A stretch of 64,000 bases of DNA from positions 193,056-257,055 of the forward strand of contig JAFYXV010000002.1 in assembly GCA_017557885.1 (NCBI GenBank), read 5' to 3'. The translations under genes and the position numbers were made by a program. This document shows, piece after piece, positions 8,150 through 64,000 of this stretch; position 1 is the stretch's first letter; each line of letters begins with the position of its first letter. The notes beneath the pieces were generated by a model, which saw nothing but the letters and a program-made list of their open reading frames with translations, was not told where the DNA came from and did no database searches. Origin of the DNA: a bacterium (lineage in GTDB: Bacteria; Auribacterota; UBA3054).

Positions 8150-9022
8150 ATGAAAAGAGCCGTCATCTTTACCCTGGCGCTTGTCTTCGCCGTGTCTTCT
8201 TTAGCCGCTCCGAAAGAGAAAGAGAAAGAGGAAGCTTGGATCCAGCAGTGCAAAAACTTCAAGGTCTTCGGCATCTCGCTTGGCATGACGCCGGAACAGG
8301 TGCGTCTTGTCTTCCTTAAGGCCCAGAAATCCTCCCTGTATCCCTGGTCGGAAACTACGCCCTACTCTTCGCAGTTCCGCTTCGATACCGATACTAAATA
8401 CGGTCCGCTCGACCAGCCGCTCATGCGTTTTTTGGATTTCGGCTTTGCCCCCGTCATGACAAACGTTCCCCAGCGCTCCCAAATGCGTGTTGTTTATGAC
8501 AACAGTTACGAAGACTCCTATCCGATGAAAGAAGCTCACACCCCCCCTAACGGCACTGTGGAGATCCTGCCGTACATGAATTACAGAGCGACCTTCCATG
8601 ATTACATCGTCACCACGAACACTTCCTTCCTGACAGTCAAAAAACTGAAAGTGCGAGACAGAGCCGACATTAAAGTTTACTTCAACAAGAAGCACAGAGC
8701 GGTGGCCATAGGTGTCGATCTTCTGAACATGAAGGACGAAGATCAGGAAAAAGCGTTCAAATACATGAACGACAATTACAGCAAGCAGGTCAGCCTATCC
8801 GATCAATACAACTTATCATTTGAATGTCCCCAGGCTCCCAACGTTTTCATGCAGTCCTGTTGGACGAACTATTACACCGCGCCTGAAGGACTTGCTTTCA
8901 AAATCGCTCCTCCCCAGTATTTCCGCCGTTGGAAAGGATACAATTTCTACTATCACGAAACGGAGTATTTCAAAGCTCTGGAAGAAAAGAAACAAAAAGA
9001 TCCGCTTTTGCAAGTGCTTTAA
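8150..9022 (+). CDS. Secreted protein, paralogue 1, with BamE-like motif
   Basis: This 290-residue protein has a signal peptide (about 1-19, MKRAVIFTLALVFAVSSLA) and a strong ribosome-binding site (AGGAGGAG). I do not recognise the family. Near residue 40 it carries FGISLGMTPEQVRLVFLKAQ, which resembles the GMTxxQV start of the BamE/SmpA fold. The rest is rich in Tyr, Phe and Asn. It is similar over its whole length to the next gene: shared stretches include PWS-TTPYSS-FRFD, LDFGFAP, a FHDYIV-TNT block, and the ending KDPLL. Both chains carry a DLKVYF/DIKVYF segment near residue 180, typical of an edge strand. Probable periplasmic or outer-membrane-associated role; nothing more can be supported. 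Confidence 0.75.
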   Translation: MKRAVIFTLALVFAVSSLAAPKEKEKEEAWIQQCKNFKVFGISLGMTPEQVRLVFLKAQKSSLYPWSETTPYSSQFRFDTDTKYGPLDQPLMRFLDFGFAPVMTNVPQRSQMRVVYDNSYEDSYPMKEAHTPPNGTVEILPYMNYRATFHDYIVTTNTSFLTVKKLKVRDRADIKVYFNKKHRAVAIGVDLLNMKDEDQEKAFKYMNDNYSKQVSLSDQYNLSFECPQAPNVFMQSCWTNYYTAPEGLAFKIAPPQYFRRWKGYNFYYHETEYFKALEEKKQKDPLLQVL

Positions 9023-9042
9023 GTTCGCAGAAAAATACAAAC

Positions 9043-9906
9043 ATGAAGAAAAATATCATTATCGCTTTAGCGCTGCTTTTCTCGCTCTCCCTTTCCGCCG
9101 CGCCAAGAGAAAAAGAAGATGATGCCTGGATCCAAAAATGCAAGAAGCATAAAATCTTCGGCATCTCCATAGGCATGACCGCGGGGCAGGTCCGCTCCGC
9201 CTTTCTGAAGGCCCAAAAAACCACCCTTCTCCCCTGGTCCGCCACCACGCCTTACAGCTCTTATTTCCGTTTTGATATGGATACCGGTTTCGGCCCCTTG
9301 AGCGATCCCCTTGGACGCTTCCTGGACCTGGGCTTCGCCCCCATACCAACCAACACTCCCAAGAAAGCCGAAGTCCGCTTCACCTACGACAACCCTTACG
9401 GCAGATCATACCCCATGATCGAGAACCATGACCCGGGCAACGGCACGGAAGAGATACTGCCTTTTATCAACTATTCCGCCAAATTCCACGACTACATCGT
9501 TTACACCAACACGATCTTCCTGAGCAAAAAAACGCTGAAAGTCAGGACCCGCGCGGATCTGAAAGTTTATTTCAACGCCAACAACAGAGTGGTGGCCATA
9601 AACGTGCATTTGTACAACATGCGGGATGAGGACAAGGATGTGGCCTTAAAACAGCTGAACGACAAATACAGCCTCAAGATGGAGCTTAGCGATCTGGACT
9701 ACTACACCTACGAAGTCGTTCCCGCTTCCGGAGTGCTGCTGCAGTCCCATTGGAAAAGCAATTACAACTACAAGCCAACTGACAAGAACGCTCCCCCTCT
9801 CAACAGCCGCCGCTGGGAAGCCGACAACTTCTATTACCACGAGGAGGAATATTTGAAGGCGCTTGCCCAGAAGAAATTAAAGGATCCCCTTTTGGACCTT
9901 CTCTGA
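9043..9906 (+). CDS. Secreted protein, paralogue 2, with BamE-like motif
   Basis: This is the tandem paralogue of the preceding gene (287 residues). The ATG at 9043 opens the signal peptide MKKNIIIALALLFSLSLSAA; a longer upstream frame lacks one. It keeps the block FGISIGMTAGQVRSAFLKAQ and the shared landmarks of paralogue 1, with roughly half of the positions identical by eye. It begins 20 bases after paralogue 1, and its TGA overlaps the ATG of the next gene (TGATG), so all are probably one transcript. Unknown function. Confidence 0.75.
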   Translation: MKKNIIIALALLFSLSLSAAPREKEDDAWIQKCKKHKIFGISIGMTAGQVRSAFLKAQKTTLLPWSATTPYSSYFRFDMDTGFGPLSDPLGRFLDLGFAPIPTNTPKKAEVRFTYDNPYGRSYPMIENHDPGNGTEEILPFINYSAKFHDYIVYTNTIFLSKKTLKVRTRADLKVYFNANNRVVAINVHLYNMRDEDKDVALKQLNDKYSLKMELSDLDYYTYEVVPASGVLLQSHWKSNYNYKPTDKNAPPLNSRRWEADNFYYHEEEYLKALAQKKLKDPLLDLL

Positions 9907-18632: not shown

Positions 18633-18667
18633 AAAATAAGCGCGCTCAACAGAGCGCGCTTATTTTT
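18633..18667. terminator. Bidirectional terminator between the GH38 and RhuM genes
   Basis: AATAAGCGCGCTC pairs with GAGCGCGCTTATT around an AACA loop, with A-rich and T-rich flanks; it serves both converging genes. Confidence 0.85.
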
Positions 18668-19508
18668 ATATTTTGGATTTCAGCCCGGAGATCTCTTTCG
18701 AGTCAAGCTTTGTGAAAGCGAAGCATTTTTTACCCAGATCTTTTGTAGAAGCGCCTACAAGAAAAAGCTCTTTGTCGTCAATGATCAAAAAACGATCATG
18801 AAACTTTGAGCTTTCCCTGATGATCAAATCTCCATATTGTTCATTAAACTTCTTGACGTCGCTTGCGGCCAGTTCATTCCCGCGCTTGGAAGTCACGATC
18901 TTAAGGCTTACTCCTTTGCCTTTTTTCGCCATCATTTCAAGGGTCGTTAAGTCAACGTAATTATCAATAAGAAGAATGGATCTTTTGGCCGAGAGAATAT
19001 GCTTCGTTATAAAGACCTCTGCGTCGAAGACTTGCCCGTCATAAAAAACACCCTGTCTCGGAGGCTGAGAAGTCCTAACAAAGAAGTCTATATTCTTCTG
19101 AATTTTTTCAATTTGAACATCGTGTCTAAGTAATTTGTCTTCTACTTGATCTATACGTCTACTTAAACTATACCCTCTGAGAAGATGATCTCGTAAAATT
19201 TTGGTCGCCCACCTGCGAAATTGTATTCCTCGCAAAGACTTAACACGATAACCAACGGAAATAAAAACGTCAAGACTGTATAATTTTACCGGTTTGTCTG
19301 AAAAAGGAATATTCCAAAAAAGAATATTGCTTTTTTCGGTTACCTCTTCTTCTATAAAAATGTTTTTTATATGTTTAGCAATAATAGGTTGTTTCCTTTG
19401 AAACAATTCGCACATTTGCGCCTGAGAAAGCCAAACAGTCTCGTTTTCAAACCGGACATCCAGCTTTATCGTTTCATCAGGCTGATAAATAATTATCTCG
19501 TTTTCCAT
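18666..19508 (-). CDS. RhuM-like DNA-binding protein with PLD-like C-terminal domain
   Basis: This 280-residue protein has the N-terminal RhuM/ORF6N-type region (about 1-110): IIYQPDETIKLDVRFENETV, WLSQAQMCELF, and a Bro-like YRVKSLRGIQFRRWATKIL block. A short coiled linker follows (about 115-145). The C-terminal domain (about 150-280) has VFDAEVFITKHILSAKRSIL and FHDRFLIIDD, matching a phospholipase-D-like fold but with HxR in place of HxK, so catalysis is doubtful. Relatives are common as stand-alone accessory genes in gut bacteria, often near mobile or restriction genes; their role is unclear. The gene is AT-rich (20 of 60 G+C in 19141-19200, counted by hand) against GC-richer neighbours, which suggests horizontal transfer. 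Confidence 0.85.
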   Translation of the reverse strand: MENEIIIYQPDETIKLDVRFENETVWLSQAQMCELFQRKQPIIAKHIKNIFIEEEVTEKSNILFWNIPFSDKPVKLYSLDVFISVGYRVKSLRGIQFRRWATKILRDHLLRGYSLSRRIDQVEDKLLRHDVQIEKIQKNIDFFVRTSQPPRQGVFYDGQVFDAEVFITKHILSAKRSILLIDNYVDLTTLEMMAKKGKGVSLKIVTSKRGNELAASDVKKFNEQYGDLIIRESSKFHDRFLIIDDKELFLVGASTKDLGKKCFAFTKLDSKEISGLKSKI

Positions 19509-39612: not shown

Positions 39613-39667
39613 TATGGTTTTTACACGGAAAGTAACAATAAACATTTCATCGATAAGGAAAATCCCT

Positions 39668-41773
39668 ATGAAAAAACGGGCTTTTGCTCTTCTGTTTTTG
39701 ATTTCCAGCCTAACCCTTTTAGCCGATCCCGGCGTCATTCGCCTAAGGGACAATACGATCGATCCCAATGATCCCGCGATCCAAAGTACTGCCGAACTCA
39801 AGTGCTGTCCCACCGCTTCCGGAAGATACCAGTACATGGTGCAGCCCAAAAAGAATTTCAATTTTACGGAATTGAAGACCGTGGAAAGCCTCGGCGTTAA
39901 GATAACCGGCTTCTTCCCGCCCAACGCTTACCTTGCGCTGGCCGCTCCAGACGAAATCAGCAATTTGAAAACGCAGTTTGAGATCATCTACATTGGCGAA
40001 TATCTGCCGGAATACAAAATAGGCAGTTGCCAGTCCGCCAAAATAGCCGCCATGGGCCAACCCTTCAAGGCGGCCATCATATTGTCGAGCAAAGAAGAAT
40101 ATCCGGAAGTCAAGGATCTTCTTTTGGAAAACGGAGCGACGGATTGCCAAATCATCCACAGCGATCCCTTCATTATGGAGGCCATGATAACAAGGGAATT
40201 GGCTCATAGGCTTGCCAAGCTTAGCGCCGTCATAGACATTGCGGAAAAAGGCGCTCTGTTGGTGAACAACGACGTTGCGAAGGGCGACAATTTGATGAAC
40301 GTGGAGAAGGTCAACAAGACCGGCTACACGGGGAAGGGCGTCAAAGTGGCCGTCGTTGACACCGGGCTTGACAGCGGCAACCCCAATAGCAATTTTCATC
40401 CTGATTTCCAAGACAAAGACGTTACTATCGTAAAGAGCAGCGGAAGCGACCTGTACTGGGGCTACGACATATCCGGGCACGGCACCCACGTGACTGGCTC
40501 CGCCGTCGGAACCGGCGCGGTGGAAAACGGCAAGTACGCCGGCACGGCCCCCGACGCTTCGCTTTATTTCATCGCCATCGGCTGCCAGGACTACAGCCTT
40601 TGCTATGTCAAGGACGAAGAGATCAAGGCCGCCTACGACGCGGGCTCCCGCATCATGAACAACAGCTGGAGCGACGCCGATTACACCGGCAGCTACAATT
40701 GGAAAACCGTCTGGTTCGACAGATTGGCGCATGATTACGACGACATGCTGATCGTCTTCTCCGCCGGCAACGCCAACGACGATATCGCAACGGAAGACAA
40801 CATAAACATCCACTCTTTCGCGGCCTGCAAAAACGTCCTGGTGGTGGCGGCTGCGGAAAGCTACAGACCTGACAGAACCGAAACTTACGGAAGCGAGCGT
40901 CTGACAGCCAACGACTTTTTCAAAGACGACAAAATGGCCTATCCCTCCGACGGCGTCCACCAGGGCATGGCTTGCTTTTCCGGCCGGGGACCCTGCAGCG
41001 ACGGGCGCATAAAGCCTGACATTGCGGCGCCGGGGACCCTGGTCTGCTCCACCGAATCGATCATGGACAGTTACAACGACTGGGAGCGCAAAAGGTACTA
41101 CACTTACATGTCCGGCACTTCCATGGCCGCGCCTTTGGCCGCGGGAGCCTGCGCCGACATCCTGCAGTACCTCAAGGAAAGCGGCGTGAAAGATCCCTCC
41201 TCCGCACTTATAAAGGCTGTCGCCTTGAACGGTGCAAGATCCATGGGCACCGGGCAATACGAAGGATACAGAGAGATCCCCAACGTTACTCCCAACAGTG
41301 TCAACGGCTACGGTCACATCGATCTAATTGAGAGCATTAATCCCGCCTGCGGGAAGCTCTTCACCATGGAGGGAACGCTAACCAATTCCGGCGATACCGT
41401 CTCCTTCCCCTGCTCGAAAAGCACCGCAGGCCCTGTCAGGGTGACGCTTTGTTGGAACGACTGTCCCGGGACCACGAGCGCCATGAGCGCGCTGGTCAAC
41501 GACCTCGACCTTACCATTTCAGATAGCAAAAACACTTACTACGCCGGCGGCGCCGCTAAGAAAAGCGACAGCGAAAACAACGTTGAGCAGATCTGGATCA
41601 AGGATTTCCCCACAGGCGAAAACATCGAAATCAGCGTAAAAGGTTATAATATTATGGAAGGGCCGCAGCGCTTCGCCGTCGCCATAAGCGGCGTGGACGA
41701 AGCGGTGCCCGAACCGACCTTCACTTTTGCAATTCTAATTTTAGCCCTGCTTCTTGGCAGAAAAACGAGATAA
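39668..41773 (+). CDS. Subtilisin-like serine protease with PEP-CTERM tail (copy 1)
   Basis: A 701-residue secreted S8 protease starting at the ATG at 39668, with signal peptide up to about residue 19 (SSLTLLADPG). A prodomain-like region of about 200 residues precedes the catalytic domain. The triad is Asp in VAVVDTGLDSG (about 230), His in GHGTHVTGSAVGTG (about 272) and Ser in GTSMAAPLAAG (about 483). A C-terminal beta-sandwich (TLCWNDCPG and ALVNDLDLTI) resembles that of the KP-43 subfamily. The end is a PEP-CTERM-type sorting signal: VPEP, hydrophobic stretch, then basic GRKTR. It is probably anchored or exported by an exosortase-like system encoded elsewhere. Tandem with a close paralogue four bases downstream. 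Confidence 0.92.
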   Translation: MKKRAFALLFLISSLTLLADPGVIRLRDNTIDPNDPAIQSTAELKCCPTASGRYQYMVQPKKNFNFTELKTVESLGVKITGFFPPNAYLALAAPDEISNLKTQFEIIYIGEYLPEYKIGSCQSAKIAAMGQPFKAAIILSSKEEYPEVKDLLLENGATDCQIIHSDPFIMEAMITRELAHRLAKLSAVIDIAEKGALLVNNDVAKGDNLMNVEKVNKTGYTGKGVKVAVVDTGLDSGNPNSNFHPDFQDKDVTIVKSSGSDLYWGYDISGHGTHVTGSAVGTGAVENGKYAGTAPDASLYFIAIGCQDYSLCYVKDEEIKAAYDAGSRIMNNSWSDADYTGSYNWKTVWFDRLAHDYDDMLIVFSAGNANDDIATEDNINIHSFAACKNVLVVAAAESYRPDRTETYGSERLTANDFFKDDKMAYPSDGVHQGMACFSGRGPCSDGRIKPDIAAPGTLVCSTESIMDSYNDWERKRYYTYMSGTSMAAPLAAGACADILQYLKESGVKDPSSALIKAVALNGARSMGTGQYEGYREIPNVTPNSVNGYGHIDLIESINPACGKLFTMEGTLTNSGDTVSFPCSKSTAGPVRVTLCWNDCPGTTSAMSALVNDLDLTISDSKNTYYAGGAAKKSDSENNVEQIWIKDFPTGENIEISVKGYNIMEGPQRFAVAISGVDEAVPEPTFTFAILILALLLGRKTR

Positions 41774-41777
41774 AAAC

Positions 41778-43901
41778 ATGAAAAAACTTATTGCCATCAT
41801 CCTTTTCAGTTCTCTGAGCCTTACTCTTCTGGCCGATCCCGGCCTTATAAGGCTCTCAAGCGCCACCATCGATCCCGCTTCCCCGAAAGTTGCGAACGCG
41901 GAAACACTCAATTCCTCCCCCACCGCCGAGGGGAAGTATCAGTTCATCGTGCAGCCGGAAAAAAATTTCAGCTCTGCGGAACTGAAAGAGATAAAAGAAC
42001 TGGGGCTTACTAAGATCGGCACCATTCCGCCGAACGCCTACATTTTCCTGGCCTCCAAAGAACAGATAAAAGAGCTTGGCGAAGTATTCCCTCTTTTGTA
42101 TTGCTCCGAATACAAGCCGGAATACAAAGTCGCCTTAATCGCCCAGAAAAAGACCGCAGAGACACCCGTTTCGGAAAAAGTTTTGATTGGTCTTGCGACG
42201 GCTGACAGTTATGACGCGGTTGCGGAATTCTTGAAAGCGAAAAATGTGACTGAGTACAAACTGCTTCACAAAGACCCGCCTGTCGTTGAAGCGAATATTC
42301 CCCTCTCCCTGGTTTCTAATCTCGCCGCCAAAAGCGAAGTCTTGAGCGTCGAAATAAAACCCGTGAAAAAATTAATGAATGACGTTGCCAGAAGCGATGA
42401 GCTGATGAACGTTGACCGCGCCAACAACTCCGGCTACACCGGGAAAGGCGTGATGGTTATAGTAACGGACACCGGATTAGACAGCGGAGACACCGCCAAC
42501 ATACACGACGACTTCCAGGATAAGAACGTGATCGGCGTCGTGGGCGAATGGAACACCACGAGGACTGACTGGAGAGATCTTAACGGTCACGGCACCCACG
42601 TGGCGGGCTCCGCAACAGGAACGGGCGCTCACTACGGCGGCGAATACGCCGGAACAGCCAGGGAAGCTGATCTCTATTTCATCTGCCTGGGCGACGCCTC
42701 CTCTTCTATTGCCGATCTTTCGGACAACGACATTGCGAACGCTTACGAAGCCGGCGGAAGAGTAATGAACAACAGCTGGGGCTCCAGTTCATACAATTAC
42801 CAGGGAGCATACACCAGCACGGCTCAATACTACGACGCCCTGGCAATACAATATCCCGATCTGCTCCTGCTCTTCGCCGCCGGTAACGAGAACGAAGAGA
42901 TCGACATCTATGATAATTTTTCCCTTTCCTACGAAGCTGTCGCCAAAAACTCCATGACGGTGGGCGCCTCGGAAAGCTACCGTCCGGAATACCCCTATAC
43001 CTACGGCATGCTCTGGGAACTGGCGAGCGACAATCCCTATTACAACGACAAGGCCGCCTATCCTTACAACGAAACTCAGCAGGGCATGGCCTACTTCTCC
43101 AGCCGCGGACCCGCCAAGGACGGCAGAGCCAAACCAGACATCGTGGCGCCCGGCACCTGGATCTATTCCGCGGAATCGCTTTATGACGATGACAACGACG
43201 GCGAAAGAAAATCCTATTACACTTTTATGTTCGGAACCTCCATGGCCACGCCCCTGACTTCCGGCGCGGCGGCCTGCGCCCTGCAGTATCTCAAAGAAAA
43301 TACCGACATCGCCTCCCCCTCCTGCGCGCTTGTCAAAGCGCTGCTCATCAACGGCGCCAGGACTATGGGCAAAGGTCAGTTCGACAGCTGCACTGAGATC
43401 CCGGAAGTCGTCCCCAACTGGGTGAACGGCTTCGGGCATGTCAATCTTAACGAAAGCTTGGATCCCTCATGCGGCAAACTCTTCGCCACAGAGGGAACAA
43501 TAAATGAGACCGGCCAATCCGTCTCCTATTTCTTCACTAAGGAAAGTGAAGGCCCTGTTTCCGCCACGCTCTGCTGGAGCGATTATCCCGGCACGGTGGG
43601 CGCAGCCTTGGCCTTGGTCAACGACCTTGACATCGTCGTGAGCGACGGAGAAACCGATTATTACTCCGGAGGAAAAACAGGACACAACGACTTTAAGAAT
43701 AACTGTGAGCGCTGTCAGGTGAACGATTTTCCCGCCGGCAGCCGCATAGAAGTAAAAGTTACTGGCTACAACGTTATGGAAGGACCCCAGAACTTCGCGC
43801 TCTGCGTTTCCGGCATAAACGATGTCGTCCCCGAACCGACCGCGATCATGACCTTCCTGCTCTCCTTGGTATTTTTGGCCTCGCGCAGACGCAAATTATG
43901 A
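41778..43901 (+). CDS. Subtilisin-like serine protease with PEP-CTERM tail (copy 2)
   Basis: A 707-residue paralogue of the previous gene, starting at the ATG at 41778 four bases after its stop. Catalytic Asp is in VTDTGLDSG (about 230), His in GHGTHVAGSATGTG (about 272) and Ser in GTSMATPLTSG (about 488). The prodomain, the DPGLIRLSSATIDP mature-side start and the NDLDIVV beta-sandwich correspond to copy 1. The C-terminus is VPEP followed by a hydrophobic stretch and the basic end SRRRKL. The pair suggests a recent duplication with maintained function, perhaps with different substrates. Confidence 0.92.
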   Translation: MKKLIAIILFSSLSLTLLADPGLIRLSSATIDPASPKVANAETLNSSPTAEGKYQFIVQPEKNFSSAELKEIKELGLTKIGTIPPNAYIFLASKEQIKELGEVFPLLYCSEYKPEYKVALIAQKKTAETPVSEKVLIGLATADSYDAVAEFLKAKNVTEYKLLHKDPPVVEANIPLSLVSNLAAKSEVLSVEIKPVKKLMNDVARSDELMNVDRANNSGYTGKGVMVIVTDTGLDSGDTANIHDDFQDKNVIGVVGEWNTTRTDWRDLNGHGTHVAGSATGTGAHYGGEYAGTAREADLYFICLGDASSSIADLSDNDIANAYEAGGRVMNNSWGSSSYNYQGAYTSTAQYYDALAIQYPDLLLLFAAGNENEEIDIYDNFSLSYEAVAKNSMTVGASESYRPEYPYTYGMLWELASDNPYYNDKAAYPYNETQQGMAYFSSRGPAKDGRAKPDIVAPGTWIYSAESLYDDDNDGERKSYYTFMFGTSMATPLTSGAAACALQYLKENTDIASPSCALVKALLINGARTMGKGQFDSCTEIPEVVPNWVNGFGHVNLNESLDPSCGKLFATEGTINETGQSVSYFFTKESEGPVSATLCWSDYPGTVGAALALVNDLDIVVSDGETDYYSGGKTGHNDFKNNCERCQVNDFPAGSRIEVKVTGYNVMEGPQNFALCVSGINDVVPEPTAIMTFLLSLVFLASRRRKL

Positions 43902-54365: not shown

Positions 54366-56861
<2,496 letters not shown>

Positions 56862-56979: not shown

Positions 56980-57076
56980 TTACCTACGAAGCACGGCTCC
57001 CCCTACGAGTGAGAGAGCGTCAATTTTTGCTTCCGCTCTTTGCAAGCGACTGTAAATAAGTGTGTTGCATTTTAAA

Positions 57077-59197
57077 CTACCACTTTTTATTTTTGGAAAA
57101 ATCTATCCCAGCTCTCGCAGATACGCGGGAAATATCGTTCGTGCAGTCCAAATATTCCAAAGCGTCAACTATTTGATAAAAAGTCAACGAATCTAAGACG
57201 GGACGTAGCTCTTCAAGACTTGAATAAACCCTGACAGCATCGTCTCTTACCTTTACTTCTTCGTTAACAGGAGCATTTACCAGGGCATCCACGAATTCAT
57301 TAAAAGTGAATTCCCCATTTTCTGAACAATAATTCCTAAATCTCTCGTTCAGTTCTTTTTTTATGAAATCGTTGCTATCCTTAATATTCGGTATCGGATT
57401 CTTTGCGAATATAAGCCAGTTAGAAACCGACTGAGATAAATTTCCGGACTCAAGTATTTTTTTCCAAATAGGCAGCCATTTATATTGCGGAGTATTTTGA
57501 TAATACCATAGGCCAAATTTAGTGCCAGGCATAAAGTCAGATTCGCCATATTGTTTATTTAAATAATTAGCAGGATCATATCTCCAATTAGGACTTTTCA
57601 CTTTTGTCTCACTGATCAACTTATCAAGTTCCGCCACAACCTCAGTCTCACCTTTCTTCTCACACCATTTCGAGAATTTCTTAGCATAATATGGGAAATC
57701 AAAGTTAGAGGCTATACCGCTCGCTTTTATCATGTCCAATATTTTTCGAGCACAGGAAGCCGGGAATTCATCCCTTAAGATCTTTATAAGGCATGAAACT
57801 TGTCCTTGGTTTATGTTTAAGACGCTCAGCACCTGACCGCGTTCATCTTTGGATAAAATTTCAAGAGTCTTTTCAAATTCCTCTGGATCGTCCGTTATCA
57901 TCGCCAACTCAAATGCCAACTCTTTTGTTGGCCGTTTTTTGAATTTTTTTCTAAGATAGTAGGTGAACTCTTCAATATCCGACAATTCGCCAAGACGTCT
58001 TATAGTATATTCCGTGTGATAATCCAGCCCTTCCAGCATCGGCTTTGCAACTTTTCTCTTAATATCACCATAAATTGCGTAAGGATTTTCCTCGTCGGTT
58101 TCCCAAAACCATGTCCCCCATTTGCAGAATTGATCAGGAGAATGATAAAGTTGCCACTGAGCAATCAAGTAAACACAGTCCCGATCTATTTCAGATTTTA
58201 TCGGAAGATCCAACCAACGACACAACTCGGCATAACCAGGATATGCATCCGGCATATGACAGATCTTTCCGAACGGATAATAAGTTTTTAAAAACTCGCG
58301 AGCGGCATCCGGATCATTTTCCAGAATGTTTTCGCAATACATCTTTCCCAGCGGGAAGTAGTCGGTATGAATTTCAGCCGCCTCTTTCAAACCTTTTGCA
58401 AAAAGTTCATGCATCCCGCAGTGATTGGCAAATCCGGAAAGTTTTTTCCATTTCCAATCAGGAGTAAACGGGTCTTTCGAAGCATCAACTACAGGAATGT
58501 TAAAAAAAGAAGAGGAGAGATCTCCCAGGCAGTAGTCATCGTAGATAACGTAACTGGTTGAATGAAGCGGACTATAATGCGTTTTTTTCAACCAATCAAG
58601 TTTATCTGATACTATTTTTTCAATAACATTCTTGAGCCCCAAAAATTTTAGCACGTCTCCCAAACTGTAAATGTGGTAAGTATGCTTAGTGGAAGCTATT
58701 CTCTGTGGTTTTTGAGGGGAAGATCTAAAAGCATCGCCTGTCGGATAACAGCAATTTACATCCAAATTCCTAAACATCTTTGGCAATTCATCAACGAAAT
58801 CATCCAGAGTAAAGTGATTAGGTTCTTCGCAGAGCTTTTTAAAATCAGTTGCAATATTTAAAAAATGAGAATCGTCCGGCCATGTAGGATCATCGACCTG
58901 ACACAAGAAAAACAGAGGCACTTTCGCAAAATCAACCCAGTTAGTGACAGATTCCGCCAGCGTTCCATTCAAAAGGATCTCTTTCCAAATAGGCAGCCAT
59001 TCTTCCTTGGGTGAGGTTCTGTGATATTCCCAGGAAGCCTGGAGGGGATCCTTGATCTCTTTTTCCTTGGCGTATTTCTCAATGTTCTCTTTCAATTTCT
59101 GGGAAGGAGAAAGAGATGTTTCTTCCGCCATTGAAACAACAGAGAAAGCGAATGCGAGAGCTATGAGCGCGAGCAGAAAATAATTGAGCTTTTTCAT
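57077..59197 (-). CDS. Large secreted protein carrying two copies of an unrecognised module
   Basis: A 706-residue protein. The ATG at 59197 follows AAAGGAT and opens a signal peptide (about 1-24); a further upstream ATG lacks one. I do not recognise the family. About residues 32-190 and 565-700 contain the same module: an aromatic Y-x(3)-TP start, KEEWLPIWKEIL, a short loop, SVTNWVDFAK, a D/E-rich F-x-L-x-x-F-V-D-x-L helix, and a YSL-GDVLKFLGLKN end. The middle (190-565) is rich in Trp, Tyr and Cys with likely helical pairs. The next gene carries one further copy of the module. The DNA is AT-rich (17 of 60 G+C in 58561-58620, against 35 of 60 in gyrB at 54481-54540, hand counts). Probably a periplasmic or surface protein; role unknown. 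Confidence 0.8.
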   Translation of the reverse strand: MKKLNYFLLALIALAFAFSVVSMAEETSLSPSQKLKENIEKYAKEKEIKDPLQASWEYHRTSPKEEWLPIWKEILLNGTLAESVTNWVDFAKVPLFFLCQVDDPTWPDDSHFLNIATDFKKLCEEPNHFTLDDFVDELPKMFRNLDVNCCYPTGDAFRSSPQKPQRIASTKHTYHIYSLGDVLKFLGLKNVIEKIVSDKLDWLKKTHYSPLHSTSYVIYDDYCLGDLSSSFFNIPVVDASKDPFTPDWKWKKLSGFANHCGMHELFAKGLKEAAEIHTDYFPLGKMYCENILENDPDAAREFLKTYYPFGKICHMPDAYPGYAELCRWLDLPIKSEIDRDCVYLIAQWQLYHSPDQFCKWGTWFWETDEENPYAIYGDIKRKVAKPMLEGLDYHTEYTIRRLGELSDIEEFTYYLRKKFKKRPTKELAFELAMITDDPEEFEKTLEILSKDERGQVLSVLNINQGQVSCLIKILRDEFPASCARKILDMIKASGIASNFDFPYYAKKFSKWCEKKGETEVVAELDKLISETKVKSPNWRYDPANYLNKQYGESDFMPGTKFGLWYYQNTPQYKWLPIWKKILESGNLSQSVSNWLIFAKNPIPNIKDSNDFIKKELNERFRNYCSENGEFTFNEFVDALVNAPVNEEVKVRDDAVRVYSSLEELRPVLDSLTFYQIVDALEYLDCTNDISRVSARAGIDFSKNKKW

Positions 59198-59398
59198 GGG
59201 ACTATCCTTTCGTGGGAATTGTGAATAACTACCATATCTATTATACAATAACCCTTGTCAAAAAAAAAAAACGCCTATAAGTTGGCTTATATTAGATATT
59301 TATATATGCAAGCCCGCTCTTTCGCGGCTATGCCAAAATGGAGAGCTATCCATTTTGGTATGGCTTAAACAAGCGCTGTAAGCGAACGTTTCTTTCGG

Positions 59399-60157
59399 TT
59401 ATTTGGAATCAAGACGCGAGTTTGACTGATACTTTAAAAAGATTGGCAAACAGCCGTATGTTCCACAAAAGCGGCGAGCTCTGGCGAGGTCACGAGAAAC
59501 CTTTCGGTCGAATGAATCAGATTCTTCTTCAGAAGGATCCGGCGAATTGTCGAGAGATTTCATCACCCTTTCGGCGACTTTCGGAAGCTCGTTGGTCAGG
59601 TTCAGGTAAACAAGCGCGTCGGCCAAATTATAAAAGGTGATCGAATATCTGATCTCGTCCGCGGCGCGAGAGTCTGACAGTAATTTAGCCGAGGAGTTGG
59701 GCAGGAGACATTTCTCGTTGACCTCGGCATTAACAAGAGCGGAGGTAAATTTCTCAAAGGAATAATGGCCTTCTTTTTCGCAGCTGATTTTCAATTTCTC
59801 TTTCAGTTCCAGCCGAACGCTTTCATTGGTTATGCTGCTCATGTAGGTGTTGGAGAACCTTAGCCAATTTTTGACGGTATCGGAAAGGTCATCCTGGACA
59901 AGAATTTTTTCCAAAAGCGGAAGCCATTCCTCTTTCGGCGTCTTCGCGAAGTACTCTGTTTCGTCATCAACGAGCCAGCGCCTCGTTTCGTTGTTCTCTT
60001 TGCTGAACTGGTATATTTTTTCCCACAGCTGACTGAAAGGATCGTGTTTGAAGATAACTAGCGCAGACTCACTGAAATCGGTCTGCGGAAAAGCGGCAGA
60101 CACCGACAGAAACGCAAAAACAGCGAACGCGAACAAAAGATAATTATGCTTTTTCAT
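59399..60157 (-). CDS. Secreted protein with one copy of the same module
   Basis: A 252-residue exported protein starting at the ATG at 60157, with signal peptide MKKHNYLLFAFAVFAFLSVSA. After the signal it has a short DPFSQLWEKIYQF lead, then the module (about 50-200): TPKEEWLPLLEKIL, LSDTVKNWLRFSNTY, YSFEKFTSALVNAEVNEKC, and FYNLADALVYLNLTNELPKVAERV. The order matches the terminal modules of the 57077 gene closely. The last 50 residues are Ser/Asp-rich and then basic. The upstream YhcG gene ends 33 bases before it, so these may share a transcript. The 150-base gap to the next gene (59249-59398) holds TTGACA and TATAAT boxes too closely spaced to be a normal promoter. Confidence 0.78.
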   Translation of the reverse strand: MKKHNYLLFAFAVFAFLSVSAAFPQTDFSESALVIFKHDPFSQLWEKIYQFSKENNETRRWLVDDETEYFAKTPKEEWLPLLEKILVQDDLSDTVKNWLRFSNTYMSSITNESVRLELKEKLKISCEKEGHYSFEKFTSALVNAEVNEKCLLPNSSAKLLSDSRAADEIRYSITFYNLADALVYLNLTNELPKVAERVMKSLDNSPDPSEEESDSFDRKVSRDLARARRFCGTYGCLPIFLKYQSNSRLDSK

Positions 60158-60190: not shown

Positions 60191-61243
60191 TTAAGGAGTT
60201 GCCGTGCTGTTTTGCTGTTCAAACAGTAGTTTCTGTTGTTCTATCTCTCGTCTCAGTTGTTCCTCCGTTGGGAGATATGTGAGATATTTCGCTGCAAACA
60301 TTTGATCGTTCTTTGCCAATGTTGAATAGCGAGCCACATCGCCATCAGTCTCTGAACAAAGGATAATACCAACTGTTGGGTTATCTCCCTTTGTGCGCTT
60401 CAATTCATCATATATTTGCAGATACATGTCCATCTGACCTACATCCTGATAAGAGAGACGGGTGGTTTTCAAATCTATGAGCACAAAGCTCTTCAACTGA
60501 TAGTTATAGAACACAAGGTCAATATAGTAATCATTCTGTTCTGTGCGAATATGCTGTTGCTCTGCCACAAACGCGAAGCCTTTGCCCAGTTCCAAAAGAA
60601 AGTCTTTCAAATGGTGAATGATGGCGCGCTCGAGTTCTGTCTCAGTAAAATCTGAATTGGAAGTAAGTCCTAAAAATTCTGCAACAACCGGACTTTTGAT
60701 TAACTCGCGCGGATCCTGCAGTGAAGCCGTCAGTTGATGCATCTCGGCAATTATCTCTTCTTTCTTAGGCGACTGGAGCAAGCGATAATAATACTGCGAC
60801 GCAATATTGCGGTCGAGCGTACGGACACTCCACGCTTCGCGCGATGCTTCGCGCATATACCAATATCTGGCGTCATCGTCAGTGACGCGTAAAAGTTTCC
60901 GAAAATGCGTCCAAGTAAGATTTTGAACTCGCGAGTTCAAAATCTCTATATCATTGAACATTAGGAACAACTGTCGCATACTGTACAAATTTCTTTCACT
61001 ATACGACGAGCCGTATATGGGTACAAGCTGATTGGCAAGTCCTTTTAAAAGTGTTTGGCCGTATTCAGCCCTCTTTTCTCCGTGCTGCTCTTCTTCCACT
61101 ATTCTTCGGCCTACCTGCCAATAAGTGCTAACCATCACTGTATTTATGCCATTGTAAGCAGTCTGTAAACCCTGTTCTACAATGGTGCGTACATCGGATA
61201 GCAGTTCGCCTGTGCTTCTCGGAATAATATCTTTTTTCTCCAT
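60191..61243 (-). CDS. YhcG-type PD-(D/E)XK nuclease (DUF1016)
   Basis: A 350-residue protein of the DUF1016/YhcG family. The N-terminal helical domain (about 10-170) contains VSTYWQVGRRIVEEEQHG, YGSSYSERNLYSMRQLF and WTHFRKLLRV. The C-terminal nuclease domain (about 190-330) has the DYYIDLVFYN and FVLIDLKT strands, giving the D-x(n)-D-x-K active site. These proteins occur in many bacteria, often next to restriction, mobile or defence genes, and their exact role is not settled. No restriction or toxin partner is next to it here. No Shine-Dalgarno sequence is obvious before the ATG. Confidence 0.9.
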   Translation of the reverse strand: MEKKDIIPRSTGELLSDVRTIVEQGLQTAYNGINTVMVSTYWQVGRRIVEEEQHGEKRAEYGQTLLKGLANQLVPIYGSSYSERNLYSMRQLFLMFNDIEILNSRVQNLTWTHFRKLLRVTDDDARYWYMREASREAWSVRTLDRNIASQYYYRLLQSPKKEEIIAEMHQLTASLQDPRELIKSPVVAEFLGLTSNSDFTETELERAIIHHLKDFLLELGKGFAFVAEQQHIRTEQNDYYIDLVFYNYQLKSFVLIDLKTTRLSYQDVGQMDMYLQIYDELKRTKGDNPTVGIILCSETDGDVARYSTLAKNDQMFAAKYLTYLPTEEQLRREIEQQKLLFEQQNSTATP

Positions 61244-61305: not shown

Positions 61306-62184
61306 TTATGAGCGGAAGGTGACGACTGCGCCGGGGGCGACGTCTGCGGTCACCCAGCTGTTGCCGCCTATTACGGCGCCTTTGCCTATTGTGATGTCGC
61401 CTAAGATGGTGGCGTTGGCGTAGATTATGACGTCGTCTTCGATGGTGGGATGGCGCTTGATGTTCCTGGCTTCCCTGGCGTTGGCGGGGAAGGATTTGGC
61501 GCCTAATGTGACGCCCTGGTAGAGCTTGACGTTTCTGCCGATTATGGTGGTCTCGCCGATGACGACGCCGGTGGCGTGGTCGATGAAGAAGCGCTCTCCT
61601 ATTTTGGCGCCCGGGTGGATGTCAACGCCGGTCCTTCTGTGGCCGTATTCCGTCATGATCCTGGGGATAAGGGGAACGCCCATGGAGTGGAGTTCGTGGG
61701 CCAGACGCTGGATGGCGATGGCCTGAAAACCGGGATAGCAGAGGATCACTTCCTCCTTGGCGAAGCAGGCGGGGTCGCCGTCGTAGGCGGCCTCGATGTC
61801 GGTCTTGATGAGGGATCTGACTCTGGGGAGAGTCAAGAGGAAAGTTTCGGCAAGGGCGGCGGCTTTTTTTACGCAGCGGGCTTTGTCGCAGTCGGGGCGT
61901 TCGTCGCCCCGGCAGACGTAGTTGATGCCTCTTAGGATCTGCTCGGTAAGTTTTTGCTTGACTTCCTCGAGGCGGCAGACCGTGACCGCGGCAAAGTTCG
62001 CTTTAGTCAGACGCTCCGAACCGAAAAAGCCGGGTAGGACGAGCGCTAAGAGCTCCTCCGTTAAGGAGGCGATGTCGTCGCTGCTCGGCAGATTCAGTCC
62101 GTCGATATGGTTTATATTGCCGTCCTCTTTGTAGCTTTCGACTAAGTTGGAGGCGGCGTCGCTGACTAATTTTTGATCGGGCAT
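61306..62184 (-). CDS. cysE: Serine O-acetyltransferase
   Basis: Makes O-acetylserine, the substrate of the CysK encoded at 26886-27827. The 292 residues include a long helical N-terminal part with a CRGDERPDCDKARC cysteine stretch (about 91-104) that is unusual. The left-handed beta-helix starts at YGHRRTGVDIHPGA and contains DHATGVVIGET, QGVTLG and the catalytic His of the RHP segment. It lies between ptsN and the YhcG gene on the minus strand, seven bases after the ptsN stop. A hexameric cytosolic enzyme is expected. Confidence 0.92.
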   Translation of the reverse strand: MPDQKLVSDAASNLVESYKEDGNINHIDGLNLPSSDDIASLTEELLALVLPGFFGSERLTKANFAAVTVCRLEEVKQKLTEQILRGINYVCRGDERPDCDKARCVKKAAALAETFLLTLPRVRSLIKTDIEAAYDGDPACFAKEEVILCYPGFQAIAIQRLAHELHSMGVPLIPRIMTEYGHRRTGVDIHPGAKIGERFFIDHATGVVIGETTIIGRNVKLYQGVTLGAKSFPANAREARNIKRHPTIEDDVIIYANATILGDITIGKGAVIGGNSWVTADVAPGAVVTFRS

Positions 62185-63737: not shown

Positions 63738-64000
63738 TTATTTCTCGGCGGACTTGGTCTCGGCAGCCTTGGTTTCAGCCGGCTTCGTCTCAGCGGGCTT
63801 GGTTTCGGCTGGCTTCGTTTCAGCGGGCTTCGTCTCAGCAGGCTTGGTCTCAGCGGGCTTGGTCTCAGCAGGCTTCGTCTCAGCGGGCTTGGTTTCAGCG
63901 GGCTTGGTTTCAGCAGGCTTCGTTTCAGCAGGCTTCGTTTCAGTAGGCTTCGTTTCAGCAGGCTTGGTCTCAGCGGGCTTGGTCTCAGCGGGCTTGGTCT
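63738..64000 (-). CDS. C-terminal tail of a protein with KPAET pentapeptide repeats (5' end off the window)
   Basis: An open frame on the minus strand runs from the window edge to a TAA at 63738 and encodes only a tail. It reads as about 17 tandem copies of a five-residue unit (KPAET, once KPTET), ending KAAETKSAEK. The rest of the protein is outside the window. Because the gene lies directly before V-ATPase subunit D, it may be V-ATPase subunit B (or another V-ATPase subunit) with a C-terminal extension; this is inference from usual gene order. The tail would be extended and unstructured. Confidence 0.65.
   Translation of the reverse strand, partial: TKPAETKPAETKPAETKPTETKPAETKPAETKPAETKPAETKPAETKPAETKPAETKPAETKPAETKPAETKPAETKAAETKSAEK
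63753..64000 (-). repeat. 15-bp tandem repeat coding for KPAET
   Basis: Seventeen near-perfect copies of a 15-base unit are visible to the window edge, with third-base and a few first-base changes (ACG/ACC Thr codons, GAA/GAG Glu codons). It continues beyond the edge, so total copy number is unknown. Confidence 0.9.

Follow-up and report, generated by a model that had tools for sequence, protein, structure and literature searches.

A family of predicted exported proteins at a recombining cysE-gyrB locus, from a single genus of uncultured rumen bacteria

Two adjacent genes in the window, the 64,000-nucleotide stretch of DNA that was analysed, appear from their sequences to belong to a new family of exported proteins with a clear domain plan, confined so far to one genus of uncultured rumen bacteria. 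They lie between cysE and gyrB and may be regarded as alleles of a diversifying locus of exported helical proteins in this genus. Allele divergence discordant with that of the flanking core genes, together with mosaic alleles, characterises the site as a recombining polymorphic locus. The fuller reading, that this is a recombining, possibly phase-variable locus of exported, outward-facing binding proteins selected for variation, is proposed here with a probability of about 0.4.

The initial annotation described two exported proteins of 706 and 252 residues, and both were recovered on the minus strand with predicted signal peptides (Table 1). Sec signal peptides, with an N-terminal K/R, a hydrophobic core and an AxA-like site, were called by a crude scorer in both proteins and in all of their relatives, and the two products are predicted to be exported. 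The same annotation had noticed one module, here termed A, twice in the large protein and once in the small one, which the comparisons bear out. Pairwise matches among the three copies had E-values of 1e-14 to 1e-25; the small protein matched the C-terminal copy at E 1.6e-25 (36% over 132 aa) and the N-terminal copy at E 1.3e-17 (BLASTP), and N-terminal A copies matched the C-terminal and small copies at E 1e-28 over 137 columns in profile-profile comparison. The motif proposed for all copies holds only in part: WLP..W..IL and NW..F are conserved in all three, but FxFxxFxxALVNAxVNE and DALxYLxxTN occur in the C-terminal and small copies only and are replaced by FTLDDFVDELPKM and DVLKFLGLKN in the N-terminal one.

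A second domain, B (~280 aa), missed in that annotation, lies between the two A copies of the large protein. It is repeated in the full-length relatives (976-1078 aa; order signal peptide-A-B-A-B), in which B1 is homologous to B2 (hhalign E 3.5e-35). Module A is half of a larger A-B unit used once or twice per protein. The 706-aa protein of the window ends shortly past its second A and lacks the last B. A frameshifted remnant of this domain was considered and dropped: the DNA from about position 57018 aligns with the pre-gyrB spacer of the other genomes, so this domain is missing and not frameshifted. The tail of the small protein, likened by eye to the start of the B domain, is possibly a remnant of it.

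Table 1. Features of the cysE-gyrB interval and its boundaries (positions in the window).
Feature	Position	Strand	Remarks
gyrB	54366..56852	-	Conserved right boundary; identity by Pfam
Large gene	57077..59197	-	706 aa from MKK ATG; open frame to 59248; signal peptide-A1-B1-A2
Module A copy 2, large protein	57080..57601	-	C-terminal end
Domain B copy 1, large protein	57602..58450	-	Predicted alpha-solenoid
Module A copy 1, large protein	58574..59113	-	N-terminal; most diverged copy
Sec signal peptide, large protein (predicted)	59123..59197	-	MKKLNYFLLALIALAFAFSVVSMA; no lipobox; sequence and crude scorer
Candidate -10 box (TATAAT), large gene	59240..59245	-	
Run of 12 T, coding strand	59260..59271	-	14 bp before TATAAT
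26-bp palindrome	59333..59358	.	CCAAAATGGA-GAGCTA-TCCATTTTGG; one exact copy in this genome
Small gene	59399..60157	-	252 aa from MKK start; signal peptide-A-short tail
Small-protein tail	59435..59488	-	RRFCGTYGCLPIFLKY; likened by eye to B-domain start FCKEYGQEEIFIQY
Module A core, small protein	59528..59977	-	
YhcG-type nuclease gene	60191..61243	-	DUF1016 + PDDEXK; not part of the A-B family
cysE, serine acetyltransferase	61306..62184	-	Conserved left boundary; identity by Pfam

Module A had been described as matching no known domain by eye, and profile searches gave the same result for A and B. No Pfam or NCBIfam family scored above its curated cut-off, in scans that also took in eight full-length members and, for Pfam, 20 module copies. 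The best Pfam models were DUF4734 for the small protein (16.8 bits vs a cut-off of 25) and Zn_ribbon_2 for the large one (15.5 vs 22.5), while NCBIfam gave nothing near the cut-off for either. No significant match to A or B was found among PHROGs, PADLOC or PDB sequences; against the last, the matches obtained with profiles of the full protein and of module A included a designed TPR (E 0.34) as well as a de novo design (E 0.18). TPR and solenoid repeat models remained below cut-off, the best being HAT (E 0.016; five of the eight members) and TPR_19 (E 0.061).

The 723-residue frame of the large gene was modelled as all-alpha (mean pLDDT 71, pTM 0.51). In the model, domain B is predicted to be a TPR/HEAT-like solenoid of stacked helix pairs, with matches of a generic HEAT/ARM/PPR type, the best of which (VIA Z 9.0 over 101 residues) is below the level meaningful for helical repeats. 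Any likeness to TPR/HEAT/ARM/PPR solenoid proteins would consist of the predicted helix pairs and of weak matches to HAT, TPR_19 and the designed TPR; all Pfam repeat models stay below their cut-offs, and the fold matches are generic. Module A, modelled from 20 alignment rows (mean pLDDT 76.8, pTM 0.74, core blocks >90), is predicted to be a compact, helical domain for which no fold match is convincing: comparisons with the PDB (Foldseek, VIA) and with viral models (Foldseek) gave a best Z of 4.4 and no E < 0.001. These model qualities do not support the claim of a new fold for A or B. The A-B proteins are putative binding proteins.

Profile searches recovered the A-B family from each of the eight genomes searched within the genus and from no genome among 376 outside it, seven of them of the same order. 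Matches in G025 and G020, outside the genus, had E-values of 0.003-0.04 and internal stop codons and were treated as chance. No relatives were found among plasmid records, phage records or viral contigs, and those in public records are contigs of metagenome-assembled genomes (MAGs) from the rumen or reticulum of sheep, yak, goat and water-buffalo; all of the genomes compared are probably MAGs. Within the genus, a second group of 636-1196 aa is always situated between argH and mazG (L127 6387-9422, L128, L129, L069, L070) and has the same A-B order as the cysE-gyrB family (hhalign E 1.6e-14 over 299 columns). The argH-mazG interval is a second conserved site in the genus with a diverging exported A-B protein. 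A member of 1277 aa is encoded in G005 (L072), and members consisting of A only (234-288 aa) are located at other sites. At L067 4000-17000, L073 and L068 the A-only members are surrounded by genes, conserved in order between species, that encode sulfatase-modifying-factor-like exported proteins, a Schlafen-AlbA protein and an AAA/DUF4143 ATPase.

The cysE-gyrB interval could be read in six of the eight genomes (G003 and G006 returned no gyrB match), and all six contain family genes, in one to four copies. G002 has the small gene only, G001 and G007 have one large gene each (1029 and 1005 aa), G005 has two large genes (976 and 1066 aa), and G004 has the small gene and three large ones (1078, 976 and 1020 aa). 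The genome of the window (G000) has the YhcG-type gene, the small gene and the truncated large gene. No recombinase gene was seen in the interval, and scanning the window for Rfam families and tRNAs returned nothing, which indicates no tRNA-anchored island.

The adjoining gene was correctly recognised as a YhcG nuclease in the initial annotation: it encodes a full member of the YhcG/DUF1016 PDDEXK nuclease family (Pfam YhcG_C E 4.9e-52), from which the A-B proteins are separate. It was also suggested there that the two genes may be a foreign islet acquired together with this nuclease, on the basis of the adjacency and of the AT-richness relative to the neighbours. The latter is real (GC 0.397 and 0.455 vs 0.55-0.58 for gyrB and cysE), and the failure to find the family outside the genus is compatible with a foreign source. 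However, low GC characterises the family throughout the genomes (0.385-0.47 at large, 0.39-0.46 at its other loci) and so does not mark recent arrival in this one. Five other species (G001, G002, G004, G005 and G007) carry orthologous genes at the corresponding cysE-gyrB position, and in all of them YhcG is absent from the locus. Since YhcG at this locus is unique to the genome of the window, joint acquisition fails as an explanation and is considered very unlikely. Between cysE and the small gene, the nuclease gene takes up a block of 1.2 kb that G002 and G004 lack, and the YhcG-like genes of the five other genomes sit away from cysE-gyrB. The window's own genome contains several YhcG-type genes or fragments (G000:C3, C4, C6, C7 and C9), of which the matches in C4 and C6 score equally and the C7 copy is broken by stops; such multiple and broken copies suggest mobility.

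An antagonistic or defensive role, with the two proteins acting as exported toxins or effectors against rivals or as part of a phage-defence island with YhcG, would accord with the match of the YhcG-type proteins to the PADLOC candidate defence set PDC-S02 (E 2e-135) and with the hot-spot-like gain and loss of genes at the locus. Such a role is nevertheless quite improbable: neither protein matches PADLOC or contains a catalytic or toxin domain, the pair is not accompanied by an immunity gene, the five other genomes lack YhcG at the locus, and signal peptides are unsuited to an intracellular defence system.

The locus also shows exchange between species, which was read directly from dS contrasts, mosaic identity and exact tracts. 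The 976-aa genes of G004 and G005 differ by a dS of 0.037, compared with 0.40 for gyrB of the same pair; for the 1029/1066-aa genes of G001 and G005 the values are 0.035 and 0.26. The longest exact tracts of the recently exchanged pairs (1564 bp, in the G001/G005 large-gene pair, 677 and 583 bp) lie inside the island genes. The 1020-aa gene of G004 is a mosaic, 100% identical to the 1029-aa gene of G001 over about 1.3 kb and 58-79% identical on either side (64% on one side). These sequence comparisons show homologous exchange between species, both of complete genes and of segments within them, with the flanks staying in place. The family offers an unusually clear record of between-species exchange at one site. 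The large gene of the window, with a dS of 1.8 or saturated against the others where gyrB has 0.15-0.49, is by the same measure an old allele.

The whole-gene dN/dS of recent family pairs (0.13-0.37) is below 1 and denotes purifying selection. For the large gene, coding constraint is seen in a dN/dS of 0.13-0.29 for recent pairs of the family. In the small gene it is 0.31-0.37, above that of gyrB (0.02-0.07) and still below 1, as would be expected if these were ordinary lineage-specific periplasmic or secreted helical proteins under weak constraint, placed in a recombination-permissive interval where the gyrB flank recombines often, with neither diversifying selection nor phase switching. This explanation is a serious one, only slightly less probable than the fuller reading; the sister loci (argH-mazG and the one beside efp) behave as plain single genes, as it would have them. 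It accounts less well for the location of the longest exact tracts inside the island genes and for the wide variation in copy number. It would further take the T-run upstream of the large gene for the U-tract of an intrinsic terminator, a point on which the promoter region bears.

The large gene has a candidate promoter region of its own, comprising the palindrome, the T-run and the -10 box listed in Table 1. The palindrome core is matched exactly at one site in each of G000, G001 and G005 and at two tandem sites in G004. All of these sites lie upstream of a large gene of the cysE-gyrB locus, as does a 3-mismatch form in G007. Genomes whose cysE-gyrB locus has no large gene have no palindrome; the lone other palindrome-like site is an unrelated 3-mismatch site in G001. 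With RNA folding energies of -13 to -14 kcal/mol (z -3.2 and -4.4), the element may be either an operator or a hairpin. The T-run is the only A/T run of at least 10 in the window. Across five genomes its length is 12, 15, 14, 14 and 18, in assemblies of separate species and in homopolymers, which are error-prone in assembly; it is absent before the 1078-aa and 976-aa genes. The hairpin that precedes the T-run in G001 (-5.4 kcal/mol, z -2.4) and the GC-rich hairpins followed by T-runs elsewhere (L146, L148, L155), which may be terminators of the upstream gene, speak for the terminator explanation, but runs of 12-18 exceed what a terminator needs and stand 1-15 bp before -10 boxes.

Distinct T-runs of at least 12, counted by pattern search, are rare: they number about 6, 4, 5, 3 and 2 in five genomes and are absent from three. 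Nineteen usable runs were analysed; they were sampled after the first one had been seen, sites of related genes are non-independent, and assemblies are unreliable in homopolymers. A -10 box (at most one mismatch, within the next 26 bp) follows 15 of the 19, compared with 24% in shuffles (P 6e-7). Signal-peptide genes, as called by the crude scorer, lie downstream of 16 of the 19, as opposed to 18 of 48 ORFs of the window (P 4e-5), an association that is moderate because the base rate of exported genes in the window is high (37%). Without the cysE-gyrB locus, which contributes five of the 19 runs, P is 1e-3. The genes at L142 and L143 are close relatives of signal-peptide proteins, beyond the 16. 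The genes behind T-runs of at least 12 are a candidate phase-variable secretome. The more far-reaching proposal that a genus-wide exported set is governed by slippage-switched poly-T promoters, with cysE-gyrB as its main variable locus, where the new all-helical A-B family would be reshuffled between rumen species, and with the locus-specific palindrome pointing to a dedicated regulator or to a site of exchange, appears unlikely.

Nearly all T-runs of at least 12 (15 places, L142-L156; G000, G001, G004, G005, G007) are located immediately ahead of a -10 box and 33-105 bp before an exported-protein gene; a Cthe_2159-type carbohydrate-binding protein and an InlB-repeat protein are among the products. 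In the genome of the window, L142 105-120 and L143 1961-1977 are near-identical copies of a T-run and exported-protein gene with 16 and 17 T, respectively; one copy is at a contig start, and the one-T difference may be an assembly artefact.

Homopolymeric promoter tracts occur in the mycoplasma vlp genes, where they are poly-A. Here, species gain, lose, swap and splice the genes and the promoter T-run looks unstable, which is why a variable-surface or secreted-recognition locus may be envisaged. In the proposed variable-locus reading, the B solenoid, flanked by A modules, would bind an outside ligand, such as a host glycan or protein, a phage or the surface of a neighbouring cell, and this partner would select for variation through allele swapping. 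Copy number changes at the fixed cysE-gyrB site, and the flanks are unchanged by exchange. Slippage in the T-run could turn expression up or down, by analogy with the poly-T promoter of Helicobacter sabA.

In H. pylori, slippage occurs in T-runs of 13-19 in the sabA promoter (PMC2715451). The likeness lies in the poly-T tract of an exported-protein promoter, of 13-19 T in sabA and 12-18 T here, and in tract lengths that differ between genomes. However, SabA, an adhesin, is an unrelated protein, its gene also has a coding CT repeat, and its slippage was measured within a population, while the present lengths are known from the assemblies of different species alone. With the mycoplasma variable surface loci (Vpma, PMC2268961) the locus shares clustered exported paralogues, gain and loss of copies, and recombination between copies; it differs in that the proteins have no lipoprotein signal, no recombinase gene was seen in the interval, and exchange takes place between species at a fixed site. 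Pathogens supply the best-known variable loci for surface and secreted proteins. The present case, if confirmed, would extend the same strategy of variation to uncultured commensals of the ruminant gut, through a family without named relatives. It would also supply a small set of genes, located behind long T-runs, with which these bacteria may vary contact with hosts, phages or rivals.

Elsewhere in the window, two tandem pairs of similar signal-peptide proteins are encoded at 8150-9906 (..SLAAPKEKE../..SLSAAPREKE..) and 39614-43901 (..LLADPGVI../..LLADPGLI..). The most AT-rich frame of at least 300 bp is at 18666-19508 (GC 0.377). A TKPAE/KPAET repeat, encoded at 63743-64000 by a 15-bp tandem repeat in 17 copies, lies at the end of a minus-strand frame that continues beyond the window.
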